Assembly (NCBI RefSeq): GCF_008124865.1
Contig: NZ_VNHY01000002.1
Location: forward strand, 496,001 to 560,000
Origin: Fodinibius salinus
GTDB taxonomy: Bacteria > Bacteroidota > Rhodothermia > Balneolales > Balneolaceae
Length of the DNA: 64,000 nt
Direction: 5' to 3'
The position numbers and the translations under genes are program-made. Under the pieces are notes generated by a model. The model had not been told where the DNA came from. It worked only from the letters and a program-made list of their open reading frames with translations, and ran no database searches. Every line of letters begins with the position of its first letter. Within the stretch, counting starts at the first letter, position 1. Shown here piece after piece: positions 33,701 to 42,093 of this stretch.

Positions 33701-34879
33701 TTAGTACTGGGGAATGCTGCCATCAATTTCTTCCGACCAAGCTAATATTCCTCCTTTCAGGTTATAAAGATTATCAAAATCGTACTTTTCTTGTAATTTC
33801 TTGATGGCATCGGAGCTGCGTTTTCCGCTGCGGCAGTGTACTACTACCTTCTTATCCCGACTTATCTTATCAGAGTGGTCAAGTATTTGATCCAGTGGAA
33901 TAAGTTCGCCTCCGATTTCTGCAATTTCTACCTCGTGGGGCTCGCGAACATCAATAAGTTGAACTTCTTCATCCGATTCAATCCATGATTTATACTTGTT
34001 TACGCTCACTTCGGGGACTTCGCTTTTTTCATCCTCGTCGTCAGCAGATGGAATACCACAGAATGCCTGGTAGTCAATAAGTTCAGTGATCTCAGGATTT
34101 TCGCCCCGTAATGGGTTGTCGGTATTTTTGGTAACTTTTACTTTACGTGTGCTAAAATCCTGGGCATCAAAAAGAAATAGCTGTTCCGAAAGTGGGTCGC
34201 CAATACCGGTAATAATTTTGATAACCTCACTGGCTTGCAGGCTGCCTATAATACCGGGAAGTACGCCTAATACGCCTGCTTCGGCACAACTGGGAACCAT
34301 TCCTGGCGGTGGGGGCTCGGGAAACAAATCACGATAATTAGGGCCACGCACGCCTTCCTCATCCTCATAGTTAAACACAGAAAGTTGCCCCTCAAATTGG
34401 AAGATGGACCCATGAACGTTGGGCTTATCCAGCATTACGCAGGCATCATTAATAAGATAGCGTGTGGGGAAGTTGTCGGTGCCGTCGGCTACAACGTCAT
34501 AATCTTTGATGATATCCAGGGCGTTTTCGCTGGTAAGTCGCACATCGTGGATTTCAATATTGATATACGGATTATTTGCCAAGAGTCGTTCTTTGGCAAC
34601 TTCTACCTTGGGACGTCCCACATCGGAGGCTCCAAATAACACTTGCCGATGTAAATTGCTTGCCTCTACGGTATCGAAATCTACAATGCCGATGGTACCT
34701 ACTCCTGCAGCGGCTAGGTATTGCAACATCGGCGCGCCAAGTCCACCAGTTCCTACTGCCAGCACTTTTGCTGCTTTCAGCTTCTTTTGGCCTTCCATTC
34801 CAAACTCGGGAATCGACAGGTGCCGACTATAGTGCCCCAGCTCTTTACTCGAAAATTCAATTTTTTCTAAATTACTCAT
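33701..34879 (-). CDS. moeZ: MoeZ-type sulfurylase: ThiF/MoeB + rhodanese
   Basis: 392 residues. The N-terminal adenylyltransferase domain has GTGGLGAPMLQYLAAAG, NLHRQVLF, the DGTDNFPTRYLIND adenylate site and PSCAEAGVLG cysteine segment. The C-terminal rhodanese has active Cys349 in VVHCRSGKRS. The tail LIDYQAFCGIPSADD resembles mycobacterial MoeZ, and the two CxxC zinc motifs of E. coli MoeB are not evident. It activates the C-terminus of the neighbouring CysO-like carrier and gives it sulfur. Last gene of the minus-strand cysteine operon. Confidence 0.9.
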   Translation of the reverse strand: MSNLEKIEFSSKELGHYSRHLSIPEFGMEGQKKLKAAKVLAVGTGGLGAPMLQYLAAAGVGTIGIVDFDTVEASNLHRQVLFGASDVGRPKVEVAKERLLANNPYINIEIHDVRLTSENALDIIKDYDVVADGTDNFPTRYLINDACVMLDKPNVHGSIFQFEGQLSVFNYEDEEGVRGPNYRDLFPEPPPPGMVPSCAEAGVLGVLPGIIGSLQASEVIKIITGIGDPLSEQLFLFDAQDFSTRKVKVTKNTDNPLRGENPEITELIDYQAFCGIPSADDEDEKSEVPEVSVNKYKSWIESDEEVQLIDVREPHEVEIAEIGGELIPLDQILDHSDKISRDKKVVVHCRSGKRSSDAIKKLQEKYDFDNLYNLKGGILAWSEEIDGSIPQY

Positions 34880-34912
34880 AACAGTTTGTTAGCTCTTAAT
34901 CCTTTATGATTT

Positions 34913-35188
34913 TTAGATACCGCCTGCTATTGCCGGTACAATACTTACCTCAGTATCTTCGTCTAATGTAATTCCACCGTTATTTTGGGGGTCAACCTCA
35001 TCGTCCCCAATGTACAATTTGATATAAGAACGGACATTGCCTTCCTCATCCAGCAGATTTTCTTCTACATCGGGATATTCTTCCACAAAAGCATGGAGTG
35101 CATTCGAAAGATTATCTGCCTGGGTATTAAAAGTTCGATTTTGGTTTGTGTATTTTCTCAGTGGTGTAGGTATAATTAATTTTGCCAT
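34913..35188 (-). CDS. cysO: CysO/MoaD-like sulfur-carrier protein ending GG-Ile
   Basis: 91 residues, beta-grasp fold. LIIPTPLRKYTNQ, NLSNALHAFVEEYP, YIKLYIGDDEVDP and TEVSIVPAIAGGI match the CysO/MoaD family. Mature carriers end exactly in Gly-Gly; here one isoleucine follows, checked codon by codon (GGC GGT ATC TAA). So a protease must remove it before adenylation; the JAMM protease gene is 17 bp upstream. Sits between that protease and MoeZ. Confidence 0.88.
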   Translation of the reverse strand: MAKLIIPTPLRKYTNQNRTFNTQADNLSNALHAFVEEYPDVEENLLDEEGNVRSYIKLYIGDDEVDPQNNGGITLDEDTEVSIVPAIAGGI

Positions 35189-35205
35189 AGCGTAACTCGT
35201 TATTT

Positions 35206-35637
35206 TTAGGTTCTGTGTACTTCTGTTTGTTCAATAATTTCTTCTTCAAACTGGCGCTGTTCATTAAGTCGCCAGGATCGTGTTATCTCGCCTTTCCCAT
35301 CTCGTACCGAAATGATGATATAGGAGAACCATGGCATTGCTACTTTCCGATCATGCTCAGAGGGTTCGGCCGGGTGGTTGGGATGTGAATGATACACACC
35401 CAACAAGTCGAGGTCATGGTCCAAAGCATATTTTTCAGCCTTTTGATAATCTTTGGGATCAATATGAAAGCGCTGCCGTTGGTCACCTTCTTTAGCATTT
35501 TTTACAGGCTGAACTTCTTGTACTTTGCGCCGATCTCCTGTATCTCCATAAAAGAAGCCGCAACATTCGTTTGGATAGTCGGCTTGGGCATGGTCATGCA
35601 TCGTCTTAAGTGATGATTCATTGAGTATTAACTTCAT
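35206..35637 (-). CDS. mec: JAMM/Mec-type metalloprotease
   Basis: 143 residues, JAB1/MPN fold. The zinc motif is complete: E24 in PNECCGF, then H83, H85, S93 and D96 in YHSHPNHPAEPSEHD (HxHx7SxxD). Mec enzymes cut cysteine off CysO-cysteine in mycobacteria; related enzymes trim carriers with extra C-terminal residues. Given the GG-Ile end of the adjacent carrier, this one could do both. Second gene of the operon, 9 bp after cysM. Confidence 0.9.
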   Translation of the reverse strand: MKLILNESSLKTMHDHAQADYPNECCGFFYGDTGDRRKVQEVQPVKNAKEGDQRQRFHIDPKDYQKAEKYALDHDLDLLGVYHSHPNHPAEPSEHDRKVAMPWFSYIIISVRDGKGEITRSWRLNEQRQFEEEIIEQTEVHRT

Positions 35638-35646
35638 AATTGTAAA

Positions 35647-36582
35647 CTAGAATAATTGGTTAAAAACTTCTCCATATTTATTTCCGTCATCGGGGAAAAT
35701 AGTTACGATAGTGCCCTCTTCAATATGGTCTGCTAATTCTAATGCTCCCAACAAATTGGCTGCTGAGGACGGGCTTAATAACAGTCCCTCTTTACGGGCT
35801 GTTTCTTTAATAAGTTCATAAGCATCTTCAGTACTGACAGCCCGTGTCGCATCCGCCATGTTTTCATCATAGATAGCGGGAGTTTGGGCCGTGGGCAGAT
35901 GTTTCCAACCTTCGAGCCCATGCATTGCAATATCGGGTTGGAGGCCAATAAGAGAAATATCGCTGTCAAATTCTTTAAGGCGCTTGCCAGTTCCGGTAAA
36001 AGTTCCGGTGGTACCTAGACCAGCTATAAAGTGAGAGATTTCGTAATTGGTTTGCTCAAGAATCTCAATTCCGGTGGTATCATAGTGTGCTTCCCAATTG
36101 CTAGGATTGCTATATTGGTCGGCATAAAAATATTTTTCAGGATGTTTTTCATACATCTTTCGGGCTACTTTTTGGGCCTCATCCGTACCACCTCCCCGAG
36201 GAGTTAATTTAAGTTTTACCCCCAATGCTTTTAGAATTTGCTTGCGTTCTTCCGAAGCATTTTCAGGTAAACACAGCGTAACGGGAATACCCAGCCGGGC
36301 ACCAATATGAGCATAAGCAATACCGGTATTTCCACTGCTGGCATCCAGTAATGATTTGTCGGAAGTAAGCTTGCCGGATTGTATAGCATCACGAATAATA
36401 CGATAGGCCGGACGAGCTTTGACACTTTCTCCGAATTGTTGCCATTCCATCTTAGCATAAATGTTCACATTATCGTGATCGCCTATGTTTTTTATGGGAT
36501 ACAAGGGCGTATGACCAACAAATGGTCGTAGTTGAATAGCTTTTTGTAAGAGCGAATCTGTAACAGTTTCTAGGGAGTTCAT
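35647..36582 (-). CDS. cysM: CysM-type cysteine synthase (sulfur-carrier dependent)
   Basis: 311 residues, PLP fold type II. The PLP lysine is K55 in GESVKARPAY (usual consensus SVKDRPA, here Ala replaces Asp). The substrate loop is SSGNTGIAYA, the phosphate loop GLGTTGTFTG, and the C-terminal loop LSPSSAANL. First gene of the operon cysM-mec-cysO-moeZ, so the sulfur donor is most likely the CysO thiocarboxylate, with O-phosphoserine or O-acetylserine as carbon acceptor. RBS AAGG lies within CACCAAGG just before ATG and may be masked by the upstream RNA structure. Confidence 0.9.
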   Translation of the reverse strand: MNSLETVTDSLLQKAIQLRPFVGHTPLYPIKNIGDHDNVNIYAKMEWQQFGESVKARPAYRIIRDAIQSGKLTSDKSLLDASSGNTGIAYAHIGARLGIPVTLCLPENASEERKQILKALGVKLKLTPRGGGTDEAQKVARKMYEKHPEKYFYADQYSNPSNWEAHYDTTGIEILEQTNYEISHFIAGLGTTGTFTGTGKRLKEFDSDISLIGLQPDIAMHGLEGWKHLPTAQTPAIYDENMADATRAVSTEDAYELIKETARKEGLLLSPSSAANLLGALELADHIEEGTIVTIFPDDGNKYGEVFNQLF

Positions 36583-36694
36583 CCTTGGTGCTATTATTGT
36601 TATTAGGGAAAAGGTAATTGCAGAACCAAGATTAGCCTTGGTGATTAGAGGTGATTACCGAAAAGGGAAAGAGTGCTTTATATTGATCGGTAAT
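36583..36694 (-). promoter_or_regulatory. RNA switch region between Cys leader and cysM
   Basis: On the minus strand several pairings exclude one another. ATTACCGA (36687-36694, overlapping the leader stop) pairs with TCGGTAAT (36654-36661); the GGTAAT of that arm can instead pair with ATTACC (36613-36618). CTTGGT (36625-36630) can pair with ACCAAG just upstream (36637-36642; 6-bp stem, 6-nt loop) or with an identical CACCAAGG that contains the cysM ribosome site (36583-36590). This design suits translation control by a stalled ribosome. Function is inferred. Confidence 0.5.
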
Positions 36695-36726
36695 TAGCTA
36701 CAACAACAGTAACAACAACAAAACAT
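36694..36726 (-). CDS. Cysteine-rich leader peptide MFCCCYCCCS
   Basis: An 11-codon ORF upstream of cysM: ATG, then six TGT cysteine codons in two triplets around one TAC, then AGC and TAA. Six of ten residues are cysteine, just 112 nt before the first cysteine-synthesis gene on the same strand, and about 80 nt after a Bacteroidota-type promoter. This is the layout of a ribosome-mediated attenuator sensing Cys-tRNA. There is no clear Shine-Dalgarno sequence, as for many genes in this group. Confidence 0.7.
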   Translation of the reverse strand: MFCCCYCCCS

Positions 36727-36813
36727 AGCACAGCCATGGTGCTTAGCGGAAAGGAAAAATATGTCTTGTGTGTTTTTCAAAATAGAAATATTTGAAATAT
36801 GCGTTGTCTTGCG

Positions 36814-36907: not shown

Positions 36908-36936
36908 TTGACATCAATAAAAACTGTGGCTATCCT
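36908..36936 (+). promoter_or_regulatory. Promoter of the sulfate-reduction operon
   Basis: TTGACA, exactly 17 bases, then TATCCT. A perfect -35 box with ideal spacing and a 4/6 -10 box; start predicted near 36943, about 33 nt before the Cys/Met leader ORF. Confidence 0.6.
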
Positions 36937-36975: not shown

Positions 36976-37092
36976 ATGAATTTTTTGAATTACATCTCCA
37001 ACCTTTTTGCAAACATGTCCATGCCCATGTGTATGTGTTGTATGTGCTGTATGTGTACCGCAGAAGGTAGTGGATGTAATTTTCCTACATAA
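36976..37092 (+). CDS. Cys/Met-rich leader peptide (MCMCCMCCMC core)
   Basis: A 38-residue ORF. Residues 14-27 are almost only Met and Cys (MSMP then MCMCCMCCMC), with one more Cys at 34; seven Cys and six internal Met in total. It sits between a strong promoter and a factor-independent terminator, upstream of rhodanese, sulfite reductase and APS reductase genes. The regulatory codons are those for the pathway's two products. An alternative reading is a small metal-binding peptide; the attached terminator and antiterminator make a leader peptide more likely. Confidence 0.72.
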   Translation: MNFLNYISNLFANMSMPMCMCCMCCMCTAEGSGCNFPT

Positions 37093-37147
37093 TTTTGTAC
37101 TAAATTACTTCAAAAAGCCCACTACCTGCTGCAGGTGGTGGGCTTTT
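37065..37147 (+). promoter_or_regulatory. Attenuator: antiterminator/terminator switch
   Basis: AGGTAGTGG (37065-37073, inside the leader ORF just after the Cys/Met run) is perfectly complementary to CCACTACCT (37119-37127), which is the 5' arm of the terminator. Pairing of the first two prevents the terminator from forming. A ribosome held on the Cys/Met codons would leave the first segment free; a ribosome translating through would cover it. Confidence 0.65.
37113..37147 (+). terminator. Attenuator terminator hairpin
   Basis: AAAAGCCCAC / GTGGGCTTTT continued inward by TACCTG / CAGGTG (one G-U) to a tiny loop: a 16-bp stem ending in TTTT then CTATTTTG, 20 bp after the leader stop and about 105 bp before the rhodanese gene. 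Confidence 0.85.
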
Positions 37148-37251
37148 CTATTTTGATATAGAAAATACACCTCTCCTCCTGCATCAGGTCTGGGCTTGTG
37201 AAACAAACTCAATCATAAACCCAACACATAAACACAAAAAGGTAACTAATT

Positions 37252-38094
37252 ATGCCTGATGTACTAACAAACGAACAAACACTTGTAAACTTAGAATGGG
37301 CCTCCGAACATCTCAATGATGAGGATGTCCGCTTTGTAGAAATAGATGTAGACACGCAATCTTATGATTCTGGTCACATTCCGGGAGCCATAGGATGGAA
37401 CTGGAAAACACAGCTTCAGGATCAGCTAAAGCGTACTATTGCTTCTAAGGAAGATTTTGAAAAGCTCCTACAGGAATCCGGTATTGATGAAGATACCACG
37501 GTAGTGGTGTATGGCGATAATAACAACTGGTTTGCTGCCTGGGCGTACTGGCTGCTAAAGTATTATGGCCACGAAAAGGCAAAAGTTCTCGATGGTGGTC
37601 GTAAGAAATGGATTGCCGAAGATCGCGAACTCACAACTGAGACCCCGGATTATGAAACCAGCGATTATACCATCGACGAAGTAGAAAGCGAGTATCGTGC
37701 CTTCCGCGATGATGTGAAAGAGAAGTTGGAGTCTGATGATTTCGGTTTGGTTGATGTGCGTTCTCCCGAAGAGTTTAACGGCGAAATTATTGCTCCCAAA
37801 GGAGTTAAAGAACTTTCGCTACGTGCCGGACATATTCCCGGAGCTTCTAATATTCCGTGGTCAACAGCTGTAAATGAGGATGGTACATTCAAATCCAAAG
37901 AAGAACTGCAAGAGATCTACGAGCAAGAGGGTATTACCCCAGATAAAGATATTGTGGCTTACTGCCGAATAGGTGAACGGTCGGCCCACACGTGGCTTGT
38001 CCTTAACGAGTTGTTGGAGTATCCAAATGTTAAGAACTACGATGGGTCCTGGACTGAATGGGGTAATCTTATTAACGCTCCTATTGAACGGTAA
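37252..38094 (+). CDS. Two-domain rhodanese, thiosulfate sulfurtransferase
   Basis: 280 residues: inactive N-terminal rhodanese domain (RFVEIDVDTQSYDSGHIPGA) and catalytic C-terminal domain with Cys238 in YCRIGERSAHTW. The CRxGxRS loop is the thiosulfate type rather than the CGSGVT of mercaptopyruvate sulfurtransferases. It opens the plus-strand sulfur operon behind the attenuator and could feed persulfide sulfur to MoeZ/CysO. AAGG lies 9 bp before ATG. Confidence 0.92.
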   Translation: MPDVLTNEQTLVNLEWASEHLNDEDVRFVEIDVDTQSYDSGHIPGAIGWNWKTQLQDQLKRTIASKEDFEKLLQESGIDEDTTVVVYGDNNNWFAAWAYWLLKYYGHEKAKVLDGGRKKWIAEDRELTTETPDYETSDYTIDEVESEYRAFRDDVKEKLESDDFGLVDVRSPEEFNGEIIAPKGVKELSLRAGHIPGASNIPWSTAVNEDGTFKSKEELQEIYEQEGITPDKDIVAYCRIGERSAHTWLVLNELLEYPNVKNYDGSWTEWGNLINAPIER

Positions 38095-38121: not shown

Positions 38122-39807
38122 ATGGGTAGAAAAAGAAAGAAGAGGACAAAAAGTAAAATAGAAAAAATAAAAGAGAGCAGCGATTACTTGCGCGCGCCTC
38201 TTGCCAACGAAGTGGGGACTGACTCCTCCCACTTCGGCAAGGAGGCTATACAGGTGCTTAAATTTCATGGTACCTATCAGCAAGATGATCGTGATCTCAG
38301 AGAAGGACGTGATCGTCATTATATCTTCATGATTCGCGGTCGGTTGCCGGGGGGTAAAATGACAGCTGATCAATATTCGGCTCTAGATGATATTGCCGAT
38401 GAATATGCTGATGGTACGCTGCGTGTTACAACACGCCAATCTTTTCAGCTTCACGGTGTTATTAAAAAAGAGCTCAAAGATACATTGCAGGCGATTAACG
38501 ATTCGTTAATCACCACCCTGGGTGCTTGCGGCGACATCGTACGTAATGTAATGGCTACACCGGCACCTGATATTGATGGTCGGCAGGCTCAAGTACAAAC
38601 ATTTGCTGATGAACTTTCGGATATCTTATTACCGGCTACCAAGGCCTATCACGAAGTGTGGCTCAACGGTGATAAGGTATATTCCGGGAAGGAAGAGGTA
38701 ACCGACAGTGAACCGTTATATGGTCACAGCTATCTGCCACGAAAATTTAAGATTGGCATAACACTGCCTAAAGATAACAGTATCGATGCGCATACGCAGG
38801 ATATTGGACTAGTAGCTCTCTTCGATGACCAAAAGGAAATTGAAGGTTTTAACGTAATCGTAGGCGGTGGAATGGGAATGAATCACCGGAAGGAAAACAC
38901 CTTCCCGCGACTTGGTGATAATTTGGGATATGTACCCAAAGAAAAGATTGTGGAGGTCGTAAAAGGTATTATTAGTATCCAACGGGATCATGGCGATCGT
39001 AAGAATCGTAAGCAAGCCCGGATGAAATACTTGATCCACAAGTGGGGACTCGAGAAGTTTGAAAAAGAGCTAGTCGATCGTATCGGTTTTGAACTCGAAC
39101 CGTTCCGTGAGTTGCCCGACTTCGATTTGGATCTGTACCTGGGATGGAATCAGCAGTCAGACGGCAACTGGTTTTTGGGAGTATCCATAGAAAATGGACG
39201 AATTAAGGATGAGGGTGATCTTCAGCTGAAGACGGCTCTGCGCAAAGTTGCCGATGAGTTCCAAACAGGTGTACGGCTAACACCCAATCACAATGTGCTG
39301 CTGACGAATGTTGCCGAGGAAGATAAAGAGGCGATTACCGATCTGCTTCATGATCATGGCGTCTTACTGGACGATGAGATTTCAAATCTCATTAAGTACT
39401 CAATGGCTTGCCCGGCACTCCCCACCTGTGGTTTGGCTATTACCGAATCGGAGCGGGCACTGCCTGATGTGATCCGAGATCTGGATGAGGTAGTGAATGA
39501 TCTTGGGCTGGAAGATGAGAAGCTTTCCGTGCGAATGACAGGCTGTCCAAACGGTTGCTCACGTCCTTATGTCGCTGATATCGGTTTTGTAGGTCGTTCA
39601 CTGGATAAGTATTCCATTTTTATTGGTGGAGACCCATCAGGAACACGACTTAATACCAAGTATAAAGATTTGGTAGAACGTGAAGACCTCGTCGATGAAG
39701 TGCGTCCGCTTTTGGAGCACTACGCTGAAAACCGATCGAATGGTGAATCATTCAGTGATTTTTGGAATCGTGTTGGTCTATCCGAAGCTGAACAAATTAC
39801 AGTTTAA
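38122..39807 (+). CDS. Ferredoxin-dependent sulfite (or nitrite) reductase
   Basis: 561 residues, siroheme/[4Fe-4S] reductase of the NirA/SirA group. A very basic N-terminus is followed by LRVTTRQSFQLHGV and LGACGDIVRNVMATPAPD. The four cluster cysteines appear in ACPALPTCGLAITESE (C-x5-C) and TGCPNGCSRPY (C-x3-C). Neighbours for APS reduction, siroheme synthesis and a ferredoxin argue for sulfite rather than nitrite as substrate. 27 bp after the rhodanese. Confidence 0.93.
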   Translation: MGRKRKKRTKSKIEKIKESSDYLRAPLANEVGTDSSHFGKEAIQVLKFHGTYQQDDRDLREGRDRHYIFMIRGRLPGGKMTADQYSALDDIADEYADGTLRVTTRQSFQLHGVIKKELKDTLQAINDSLITTLGACGDIVRNVMATPAPDIDGRQAQVQTFADELSDILLPATKAYHEVWLNGDKVYSGKEEVTDSEPLYGHSYLPRKFKIGITLPKDNSIDAHTQDIGLVALFDDQKEIEGFNVIVGGGMGMNHRKENTFPRLGDNLGYVPKEKIVEVVKGIISIQRDHGDRKNRKQARMKYLIHKWGLEKFEKELVDRIGFELEPFRELPDFDLDLYLGWNQQSDGNWFLGVSIENGRIKDEGDLQLKTALRKVADEFQTGVRLTPNHNVLLTNVAEEDKEAITDLLHDHGVLLDDEISNLIKYSMACPALPTCGLAITESERALPDVIRDLDEVVNDLGLEDEKLSVRMTGCPNGCSRPYVADIGFVGRSLDKYSIFIGGDPSGTRLNTKYKDLVEREDLVDEVRPLLEHYAENRSNGESFSDFWNRVGLSEAEQITV

Positions 39808-39825
39808 CTCTCATTACAATTCACT

Positions 39826-40638
39826 ATGAGTATTCAATCGTTAACCTCCTACGGGAAAGTATATCTCGTAGGAGCCGGTCCGGGAGATCCCGATTTAATA
39901 ACAGTAAAAGGATCTGAGGTGTTACAAAAGGCCGATGTTATCGTCTATGACCGATTGGCAAACCCTGCGTTACTATCCAAAACATCGGAGAAGTCAGAAC
40001 ATATTTATGTCGGTAAACGCCCAGATAAACCTTCGGTATCACAAGAGCAGATAAATCAAATTCTGACTACTAAAGCAAAGGAGGGTAAGATTGTTGCCCG
40101 ACTTAAGGGCGGTGATTCCTTTGTTTTTGGTCGTGGGGGAGAGGAGTGCGAAGCACTTCGTGCCGAACATATCCCTTTCGAAGTAATACCGGGCATAAGT
40201 AGTGCGCTAGCGGCCCCTGCTTTTGCAGGCATTCCGCTGACGCAACGTAAAGTAGCACGTTCTTTTACAGTTGTAACCGGCCATACTATTCATAATACCG
40301 ACACTTTCGCAGGGTGGAACTATTATGTACACGCTGATACTCTGGTCATTCTGATGGGAATGGGCCGGCTCCCCCAAATAGCCGAGCAACTAATTGGGCA
40401 CGGCCGCAGTGCTGATACGCCCGTTGCAGTAATAGAAAAAGCTACCTATCAGTCGCAAAGGGTAAAAACAGCCACACTCGGTAATATTGCTGATGAGGCG
40501 AAGGAGTTATCACCGCCTGGTACGATTGTAATAGGTGAATTGGCAGCGAAAAGTAAGCAGCTTGCCTGGTTTACTCCGAATAGTGAAATTGATACATCAG
40601 TAACAAATAGTAATAGAAGGACACAAGTTGTGGGATAA
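39826..40638 (+). CDS. cobA: Uroporphyrinogen-III C-methyltransferase (SUMT)
   Basis: 270 residues, single-domain SUMT. VYLVGAGPGDPDLITVKG (SAM site 1), YDRLANPALL, ARLKGGDSFVFGRGGEE, EVIPGISSALAAPAFAGIPLT and LVILMGMG are all family signatures. Makes precorrin-2 for the siroheme of the preceding reductase; the oxidation/chelation enzyme is two genes downstream. 18 bp after the reductase and 3 bp before cysH. Confidence 0.95.
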   Translation: MSIQSLTSYGKVYLVGAGPGDPDLITVKGSEVLQKADVIVYDRLANPALLSKTSEKSEHIYVGKRPDKPSVSQEQINQILTTKAKEGKIVARLKGGDSFVFGRGGEECEALRAEHIPFEVIPGISSALAAPAFAGIPLTQRKVARSFTVVTGHTIHNTDTFAGWNYYVHADTLVILMGMGRLPQIAEQLIGHGRSADTPVAVIEKATYQSQRVKTATLGNIADEAKELSPPGTIVIGELAAKSKQLAWFTPNSEIDTSVTNSNRRTQVVG

Positions 40639-40641
40639 ATA

Positions 40642-41379
40642 ATGGATTCAATAAAAAACGAGCTCGTACCTAATGAGGAATTATCTGATGAGTTGCTTAG
40701 TGGCCTTAATACCCAGTTCGAGATGGCGGGCCCCGATGAGGTATTACTTTGGGGTTACGATACTTTTGGTGCTGAGATGGTTTTGGGCACGGGCTTTGGA
40801 CCATCTGGGATGTTTCTCATTTATCGTCTCTGGGAGCTAGGGGTAGAAATCCCAATTTTTTATCTGGATACACACTTGCTCTTTGATGAAACCTATGCCT
40901 TAAGAGATCGGGTCGAAGAACGTTTTAATATTCAGATAACAAGGGTTTCGAGTGACTTATCACTGGATAAACAGGCACAGAAGCATGGGGAGAAACTCTG
41001 GCAAAAAGATCCTAACAAGTGCTGTCATCTCAGAAAGGTGTTGCCGTTGCGGAATTATCTGTCGGATAAAAAAGCATGGATTACCGGTGTCCGTCGCAGC
41101 CAGTCCGAAACGCGAAAAAGTACGCAATATGTGGAATGGGATCCGGAAAATGAGGTAGTCAAGCTGAATCCCTTAGCTAACTATACGACGAAGCAGGTAT
41201 GGAATTATATTCATAGCAAAAACTTACCCTATAACCCGCTTCATGACGAAGGGTATCCGAGTATTGGGTGTATACCTTGTACCGATGCAGTGGAAGAAAC
41301 GGCCGGGGATGAAAGGGCCGGCCGTTGGAATGGCAGCGAAAAGACTGAATGTGGGATACATCTTTCCACACAGCAATAA
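40642..41379 (+). CDS. cysH: APS reductase (CysH, iron-sulfur type)
   Basis: 245 residues of the PAPS/APS reductase fold. Cys pairs C127-C128 (NKCCHLRKV) and C210-C213 (GCIPC) form the [4Fe-4S] site diagnostic of APS-preferring enzymes. Catalytic C237 lies in ECGIH near the C-terminus. The substrate-loop residues ITGVRRSQSETR are also present. Reduces adenylyl-sulfate to sulfite, the substrate of the reductase two genes upstream. ATP sulfurylase is not in the window. Confidence 0.93.
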   Translation: MDSIKNELVPNEELSDELLSGLNTQFEMAGPDEVLLWGYDTFGAEMVLGTGFGPSGMFLIYRLWELGVEIPIFYLDTHLLFDETYALRDRVEERFNIQITRVSSDLSLDKQAQKHGEKLWQKDPNKCCHLRKVLPLRNYLSDKKAWITGVRRSQSETRKSTQYVEWDPENEVVKLNPLANYTTKQVWNYIHSKNLPYNPLHDEGYPSIGCIPCTDAVEETAGDERAGRWNGSEKTECGIHLSTQQ

Positions 41380-41418: not shown

Positions 41419-42093
41419 ATGGAAACTTTTCCAATTTATTTACGTCGTTTAGAAGAACGGAAAACAGTATTAATAGGTGGCAATGACGAAGCCGAACAAA
41501 AAGCAAAACAGCTTTTAGACCGTAATGCAAAGCTTACGGTCATTAATCCGCGGTTAACAAAAAAGATGCTCTGGTGGGCTATCCAAAATCGCTTTCAATG
41601 GATTCGCCGAACATATCGACAGGGTGATCTTGAAGATGCATTTATGGCGATTGTTGCAGATTATAACGGTGATGTTAATAAAAAAGTGTATCAAGAAGCG
41701 CGAGAGCGAAACATTTTAGTGAACGTAATGGATGACATCCCTCATGCTAATTTTGCTTTCGGATCCATTGTAAAACAGGGACCGTTAACAATTTCTATTT
41801 CCACTAGTGGGGCGGCCCCGGCACTGTCGGTGCGGCTTCGCCAGCGGTTCGAAAAAGAATTTGGTCCTGAATATGGCGCTTTTTTGGAGTTTATGCAGAA
41901 ACTTCGTGAGCCGATGTCGCGCCACCATGATAGCTTTGAGACCCGACGAGAATTATGGTACGAAGTTATCGATTCTGAAGTATTGACCCATTTTCGGAAT
42001 GGTAATCTCGAAAAGGCCTACGATAGAACCGCCGAAATTATAGGTGAAGAACTTGTGGAAGAAGCTCTAGATATCGAAAAGGTTGCTCAATAA
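41419..42093 (+). CDS. Precorrin-2 dehydrogenase/sirohydrochlorin ferrochelatase (CysG N-domain type)
   Basis: 224 residues. MxTFPIYLRRLEERKTVLIGGNDEAEQKAKQ is the NAD-binding start; the usual GGGxVAxRK is changed to GGNDEAEQKAK. VNVMDDIPHANFAFGSIVKQ and ISISTSGAAPALSVRLRQRFE are clear signatures of CysG-A/SirC. Completes siroheme synthesis with the SUMT gene. A 263-bp gap with no recognised gene follows. Confidence 0.9.
   Translation: METFPIYLRRLEERKTVLIGGNDEAEQKAKQLLDRNAKLTVINPRLTKKMLWWAIQNRFQWIRRTYRQGDLEDAFMAIVADYNGDVNKKVYQEARERNILVNVMDDIPHANFAFGSIVKQGPLTISISTSGAAPALSVRLRQRFEKEFGPEYGAFLEFMQKLREPMSRHHDSFETRRELWYEVIDSEVLTHFRNGNLEKAYDRTAEIIGEELVEEALDIEKVAQ

Follow-up and report, generated by a model that had tools for sequence, protein, structure and literature searches.

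The rhodanese–sir–SUMT–cysH–cysG operon of Fodinibius salinus is preceded on the plus strand by a leader that is very probably a ribosome-mediated transcription attenuator sensing charged Cys-tRNA and Met-tRNA. When Cys-tRNA or Met-tRNA is scarce, the ribosome would stall on the CMCCMCCMC codon run of a short leader ORF, so that segment 1 of the RNA would be held off and segment 2 would stay free; segment 2 would then pair with segment 3 once the latter is made, the terminator would be blocked, and the operon would be transcribed. When both amino acids are ample, the ribosome would lie over segment 2 as segment 3 emerges, segment 3 would pair with segment 4, and transcription would stop. An attenuator had been proposed in an earlier note on this DNA, and this interpretation is supported by the comparison of related leaders described below, from which we infer translation of the ORF, stalling, ribosome–polymerase coupling, read-through and the relative weight of the two amino acids. 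We also hold it reasonably likely that sulfur metabolism in Balneolales is largely run by RNA, through a Cys/Met attenuator regulon covering sulfate uptake and reduction, siroheme, metY and peptide uptake, plus a two-input gate with a SAM-I riboswitch at metY. The leader would then be only the first visible part of a regulon that spans the lineage, and of a tandem between leader and riboswitch.

The leader locus and its close relatives

The features are listed in Table 1 with their positions in the window, the 64,000-nt stretch of F. salinus DNA that was analysed. Direct reading confirmed the leader ORF, the two complementary segments and the terminator reported earlier: the 38-codon Met/Cys ORF runs from an ATG to a TAA at 37090–37092 (MNFLNYISNLFANMSMPMCMCCMCCMCTAEGSGCNFPT), and segments 2 and 3 are complementary without mismatch. 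Two details were corrected, namely that segment 2 ends 16 nt, not 17 nt, ahead of the stop codon, and that the terminator, which indeed has a stem of 16 bp, does not end in TTTT; the TTTT belongs to the stem, which is followed by the tail CTATTTTGAT, a U-tract that is weak in this species. At least six T were found in the tail in 7 of 11 relatives. All 16 pairs of the stem form, which is the highest pair count among 18 terminator-like sites in 16 kb. The segments are laid out as 1:2, 2:3 and 3:4, with the codon run within the loop between segments 1 and 2. As judged from codon counts, the predicted leader ORF is short and rich in codons for the product of the regulated pathway, and an intrinsic terminator lies between it and the first gene.

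The promoter given in the earlier note is likewise present, and the transcript would start about 33 nt before the ORF. Matches of this promoter type show no enrichment in the region (39 versus 36.2 expected); TTGAC was seen by eye at the corresponding site in 11 of 12 genomes. In the fold proposed as a check, the 218-nt leader folded better than all 200 shuffled sequences (z = –4.18; 0/200 equally good). None of the Rfam families matched the plus-strand leader at the gathering score, the best being L10_leader with 24 bits against a cut-off of 44, and no known riboswitch was detected at the leader. As a separate observation, many relatives have, in the region corresponding to 37190–37250, a hairpin (GCTTTGTG/CACAAAGC) with a long open loop just 5΄ of the rhodanese start; this hairpin is absent from the predicted fold of F. 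salinus.

Table 1. Features of the leader locus, its flanking genes and the related Trp leaders (positions in the window; L numbers denote loci)
Feature	Position or locus	Strand	Basis
Promoter TTGACA-N17-TATCCT	36908..36936	+	Motif match; TTGAC conserved in relatives by eye
Leader ORF, 38 codons, Met/Cys run, 7 Cys and 7 Met including start	36976..37092	+	Homologous leaders in 11/11 others with close rhodanese
Segment 1, partner of segment 2 region (about 37061–37084)	36987..37010 (about)	+	Fold; shuffle test
Regulatory Cys/Met codon run CMCCMCCMC	37030..37056	+	Read from sequence
Segment 2, AGGTAGTGG, 5΄ half of antiterminator	37065..37073	+	Sequence, conservation, covariation
Segment 3, CCACTACCT, 3΄ half of antiterminator, part of terminator 5΄ arm	37119..37127	+	Sequence, covariation
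Intrinsic terminator, 16-bp stem, 3-nt loop	37113..37147	+	Sequence, conservation, alignment
Two-domain rhodanese, 3-mercaptopyruvate sulfurtransferase-like (below the family's cut-off), first gene	37252..38094	+	Profile match
Assimilatory sulfite reductase hemoprotein (Sir)	38122..39807	+	NF010029 above cut-off
Uroporphyrinogen-III C-methyltransferase (SUMT, siroheme)	39826..40638	+	Family match
CysH, (phospho)adenylylsulfate reductase	40642..41379	+	Family match
CysG N-terminal domain (siroheme synthase)	41419..42093	+	Family match
Divergent operon: cysM-like synthase, JAMM protease, ubiquitin-like sulfur carrier, MoeB-rhodanese	33701..36582	–	Family matches
Second leader, poly-Cys ORF ...CAMFCCCYCCCS*, TTG start 36780 or ATG start 36726	36694..36780	–	Relatives' endings
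Hairpin ATTACCGA/TCGGTAAT directly after poly-Cys stop, without U-tract	36654..36694	–	8/8 genomes
Trp leaders	L187, L193, L199, L202, L205, L208, L219, L220, L277–L281, L283–L287, L289, L290, L295		

We searched 58 genomes for the rhodanese and obtained some match in 38, of which 12, including that of F. salinus, held a close orthologue (at least 73% identity). The leader was found in all 12, in each case as an ATG-initiated ORF of 32–39 codons containing a Met/Cys run, together with a segment resembling GGTAGTGG and a terminator. The terminator of genome G018, read by eye, is AAAACCCACTACCTG-TCG-CAGGTAGTGGGTTTT; in this genome and in G004, a single position of the 8-nt segment 2 is mismatched with segment 3. 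Among the 58 genomes, 13 carry a close Sir orthologue (E below 1e-200), all of them with a leader of this class before rhodanese or sir, and in one congener without Sir (G009) the leader stands before a lone rhodanese. Other Balneolota had been suggested as the place to look for the same arrangement, and every close relative found to carry the operon has both the leader and the hairpin. No leader was detected in the 420–560 nt upstream of the distant rhodaneses of the order (L014–L016, 49–50% identical), in the upstream scan of Salinivenus and Salinibacter rhodaneses, or within 500 nt of cysD in the F. salinus genome. A second rhodanese copy in genome G007 (L062, 4456–4592) has kept segment 2 and the terminator, and the ORF found there lacks Cys codons. 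In genome G066 and Gracilimonas mengyeensis (L074; Balneolaceae, Balneolota), 1,500 bases around the leader are identical.

The leader family and its codons

A covariance model of the 12 leaders in which only the terminator was paired (R1) was run on 128 genomes of the order, and matches at E 0.01 were obtained in 84 of them, some being terminators alone. By reading the better hits, we identified 56 Cys/Met leaders, including the 12 training leaders; among the 44 additional ones, 27 stand before sulfur genes and 9 before permeases, whose substrate we guess to be sulfate. The genes after the 56 leaders, called with Pfam/NCBIfam for representatives and by eye for the remainder, encode rhodanese (21), permease (9), SUMT (7), Sir (5), SusC-type receptor (5), MetY (3), CysH (2), SfnG (1), an isochorismatase-like protein (1) and a CoA-binding protein (1), with one unassigned. 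Reading of 40 further R1 places gave 23 Cys/Met leaders, 8 Trp leaders and 9 that are neither. In F. salinus itself, the listed matches C3:297030 and C2:419409 turned out on reading to be plain terminators, and C2:533110 lies antisense to the terminator of the rhodanese-operon leader itself.

A broader model (R2) was run on 244 genomes of the class and 394 of the phylum. All of its hits of at least 45 bits fell within the order, where 15 further places were read as 12 Trp leaders and 3 neither; in the class and phylum genomes outside the order, the best hit reached 42.4 bits and covered the terminator only. Both models miss the metY leader of F. salinus, and therefore their negatives outside the order are no proof of absence. 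In four of the five congeners without Sir (G002, G003, G005 and G008, the fifth being G009), no Cys/Met leader of the rhodanese-operon class occurred among the R1/R2 hits read, which were Trp leaders or terminators, with a Trp leader in each; all four do carry Cys/Met leaders of the SAM-tandem class described below.

Over the 1867 codons of the 56 leaders, frame 0 contains 293 Cys and 276 Met codons (start excluded), compared with 208 and 38 Cys and 19 and 26 Met in the other frames. Met marks the reading frame more clearly than Cys, because Cys is also high in another frame, and since Met is enriched about as much as Cys, the sensor probably reads both. If a stalled ribosome is taken to cover 12 nt from its A site, segment 2 stays free at 188 of the 190 Cys codons that precede it, and in 38 of 40 leaders the last of these codons starts 12 nt or more upstream of the segment. 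Six leaders of family f3 (L170, L176, L177, L181, L185 and L201) have a second Cys cluster after segment 2, for example GSGCCMC*. Such extra Cys codons in some f3 leaders count against the scheme, as stalling does not explain them.

The near-equal enrichment of Met and Cys codons also bears on the idea of a slow-translation or stress attenuator, in which rare Cys codons, or damage to Cys-tRNA charging under oxidative or electrophile stress, would report thiol stress and not supply. Cys supply is linked to thiol stress, and the present data do not separate the two; however, a Cys-specific stress signal fits poorly with this enrichment or with a gene set of sulfur assimilation and methionine synthesis, and we consider it very unlikely.

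Leaders before SusC-type receptors (L182, L183, L184, L191, L192, and loci L223, L224 and L226) form the class richest in Met, with a mean of 8.0. At the last three loci, by eye, a SusD-like gene follows in two and a peptidase-like gene in all three. These receptor operons may possibly serve the uptake of peptides as a sulfur source.

Leaders of the same kind were found in series with SAM-I riboswitches. In F. salinus, metY (C4:305034, L291) is preceded, in order, by a leader (MNRIAKHIICLCCMHMAMPYLQPED), a terminator, a SAM-I riboswitch and a second terminator-like hairpin; the riboswitch matches RF00162 at the gathering score (75.6 bits), as do those at L221, L209 and L203. We examined all 63 SAM-I riboswitches from 54 of the 58 relatives; a Cys/Met leader lies no more than 330 nt upstream of 46 of them, that of F. 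salinus metY included, and the genes downstream are mostly metY or encode CoA-binding proteins. Shuffled sequences lead one to expect 0.5 leaders, and the antisense strand gave 3. For 42 of the 46, a terminator also lies within 200 nt upstream of the aptamer, and for 33 of the 37 whose terminators could be found by pattern, the leader region pairs with the terminator 5΄ arm better than shuffled sequences do (P ≤ 0.05). Four of the 56 R1 leaders belong to this class (L203, L209 and L221, plus L218 by its gene). None of the nine MetH-type SAM-I riboswitches, assigned by eye from MGTMIQ starts, has a Cys/Met leader. A leader and a SAM-I riboswitch in series should require low Cys/Met-tRNA and low SAM together, and the metY gate, if true, would open only when both inputs are low, the attenuator and the riboswitch each acting through a terminator of its own.

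Leaders of the same layout with Trp codons were found before trpE at 21 loci, one of them in F. salinus (L295). The codon run is WWW in 19 and WCW in 2 (L284 and L287); CAGTGG follows the run in all 21, and GGCAGTGG is present in 14. A single scaffold, in which the codons can be exchanged, thus seems to be in use in the lineage.

Farther afield, Cys-run ORFs were observed before rhodanese genes of Acidobacteriota at L089 (–175/–113), L092 (–170/–111) and L097 (–160/–99); they contain (C)TCTGGCG, which is complementary to CGCCAGA(G) of a terminator arm. A Chloroflexi locus (L084) has an ACMCCMC ORF plus a terminator. Cys-dense ORFs numbered 3 in 77 loci versus 0.75 expected, which is weak by count, and L089 came from a separate scan. 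Here, Cys attenuators may have arisen independently before members of the same rhodanese family.

Pairing of the RNA segments

The 2:3 pairing was assessed in the 34 of 56 leaders in which a pattern located both segments, the other 22 falling outside the pattern; 268 of 272 pairs form. When the partners were redealt, the mean was 261.8 pairs, and 268 was reached in none of 10,000 trials. Exchanges occur at three positions (GC/AU, UA/UG/CG and UA/UG/CG). In an alignment of 25 rows, paired cells make up 98.5% of 200 for 2:3 and 90.7% of 375 for 3:4, with changes on both sides in six 3:4 pairs. In alignment A4, the 2:3 covariation score was reached by 0 of 500 shuffles; a change on both sides is seen in one 2:3 pair only, which 78 of 500 shuffles match. 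With the last 45 nt of the ORF taken blindly, the 2:3 pairing was better than the mean cross-pairing in 43 of 56 leaders and exceeded shuffled sequences (P ≤ 0.05) in only 21 of 56. The 1:2 pairing exceeded shuffled sequences (P ≤ 0.05) in only 25 of 40. The earlier claim that antiterminator and terminator are mutually exclusive is borne out by these alignments, in which the antiterminator has been kept in evolution and both 2:3 and 3:4 covary.

Two further patterns concern the antiterminator. Position U127 of segment 3 has no terminator partner in 10 of 25 rows, and all 10 retain its segment 2 partner, which argues that U127 is kept for 2:3; the converse, a lost 2:3 partner with the terminator partner kept, occurs in 2 rows. 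A frame shift over segment 2 removes GSG from the peptide in four genomes (G029, G101, G102 and G066), all of which retain GGTAGTGG. Because GGTAGTGG survives the frame shift, it is kept as RNA.

Such persistence of the RNA segments behind a frame-shifted C-terminus is difficult to reconcile with the possibility that the Cys/Met-rich peptide itself acts, as a small metal- or redox-binding protein or a sensor of copper, zinc or electrophiles, with the terminator being incidental or tuned through peptide–ribosome arrest. Met/Cys-rich peptides can bind soft metals, and several leaders have an NQIHNF-like N-terminal stretch in common; however, this stretch coincides with RNA segment 1, the length, the Cys/Met order and the C-terminus of the peptide vary, Trp-coded leaders with the same layout exist, and the downstream genes are sulfur genes and not metal genes. 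A function of the peptide as such is therefore very unlikely.

Attenuation by the RNA was followed by masked folding. For the full transcript, all ribosome states tried favoured the terminator energetically, and thus 2:3 must win kinetically; the switch of the trp attenuator is likewise kinetic. In the masked nascent fold, 2:3 forms with the ribosome on the Cys run, and the terminator forms whenever segment 4 exists. Before segment 4 is made, untranslated RNA prefers 2:3 (9 pairs) over 1:2, and the energies therefore do not support a protector role of 1:2. As many as 7 pairs of 2:3 are still possible when the ribosome rests at the stop codon, and only a ribosome on segment 2 abolishes 2:3; termination in times of plenty would thus depend on ribosome timing. 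The two-state fold proposed in the earlier note as a check accordingly held for the ribosome on the Cys run, but 2:3 also formed without a ribosome and in part with the ribosome at the stop. The caveat that the geometry differs from that of the trp leader is eased by the finding of segment 1 and by the spacing of the last Cys codon, and stands insofar as part of 2:3 can still form with a ribosome at the stop codon.

A strong and thermodynamically preferred terminator is also what would be seen if termination were constitutive, the upstream ORF unrelated and regulation absent. However, the codon content is conserved, the antiterminator covaries, and 46 of 63 SAM riboswitches stand behind such ORFs versus the 0.5 expected, so that this explanation is extremely unlikely. 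On the comparative evidence, the Cys/Met attenuator is probably real and functional.

The divergent poly-Cys leader and known systems

On the minus strand, a second leader is placed 111 nt 5΄ of the divergent cysM-like gene. Like segment 1, the SAM-I tandem and the Trp leaders, it was absent from the earlier note. A CCCCCCS* or R* ending occurs at the same place in seven other genomes (eight including F. salinus). The long ORF starts with TTG in six of the eight and with ATG in two, and an internal ATG lies just 5΄ of the Cys run in four of the six TTG-start genomes; its start is therefore uncertain. In all eight genomes, the hairpin behind the ORF starts at the stop codon or 1 nt later, with linked changes seen by eye, and the spacer after the ORF has fewer G than C. 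A Met run and a U-tract terminator are absent, and the Cys run lies near the stop. The pattern TGY x6 matched 77 of 128 genomes of the order, and among 30 loci inspected, the only clear leaders were the four adjoining cysM. We take the divergent cysM/JAMM/carrier/MoeB operon to resemble the mycobacterial CysO-CysM-Mec cysteine route. With lower confidence, this operon may also be controlled by Cys-tRNA, via translation or Rho.

The principle of attenuation is already known. The trp, his and thr attenuators of E. coli and its relatives have codons for the pathway product in a leader ORF, 1:2, 2:3 and 3:4 pairings and an intrinsic terminator; the Balneolota leader shares these features, with 1:2 as a putative pairing and including the position of the terminator before the first gene, but uses Cys and Met codons, holds the run in the 1–2 loop and has its stop after segment 2. 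Tandem riboswitches are a known serial arrangement, and metY of F. salinus shares with the SAM-I (S-box) and tandem riboswitches both RF00162 before the gene and the arrangement in series; the upstream partner is a second aptamer in tandem riboswitches, whereas it is a predicted leader-peptide attenuator at metY. Attenuation in Balneolota would imply ribosome–polymerase coupling in that branch. The leaders flag candidate genes of sulfate and peptide uptake, their set could serve as a ready reporter set, and the tandem would be a natural two-input RNA gate.

Leader ORFs with poly-Cys runs in actinobacterial cys operons were reportedly described by Canestrari in 2020. The Balneolota leaders share with this type a Cys-codon ORF before cysteine genes, as far as the available text of the sources goes, and the closest to it is the minus-strand ...CCCCCCS* leader, with Cys near the stop and no intrinsic terminator. 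The plus-strand leader differs from the actinobacterial type, as represented in the same text, in having Met plus a covarying intrinsic terminator, in all 12 genomes. In the available part of PMC1262725, Cys-rich leaders are predicted for actinobacterial cys operons without conserved terminator hairpins, and mycobacterial cysteine genes are cited as being under translation attenuation in that of PMC13236596. Leader genes are counted for Bacteroidetes and other groups in the accessible text of PMC4833913, where cysteine is never mentioned. Among the matches listed from the open-licence literature, none reported Cys/Met attenuators for Balneolota or Bacteroidota, nor a SAM riboswitch in tandem with a leader peptide. 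Within the literature searched, the Cys plus Met code with an intrinsic terminator, the host lineage and the leader/SAM-riboswitch tandem look new. According to the part of PMC2965389 available, no leader-peptide system had been shown outside Proteobacteria and Actinobacteria; the present data place such control before sulfur and tryptophan genes in Balneolota, with strong comparative support.
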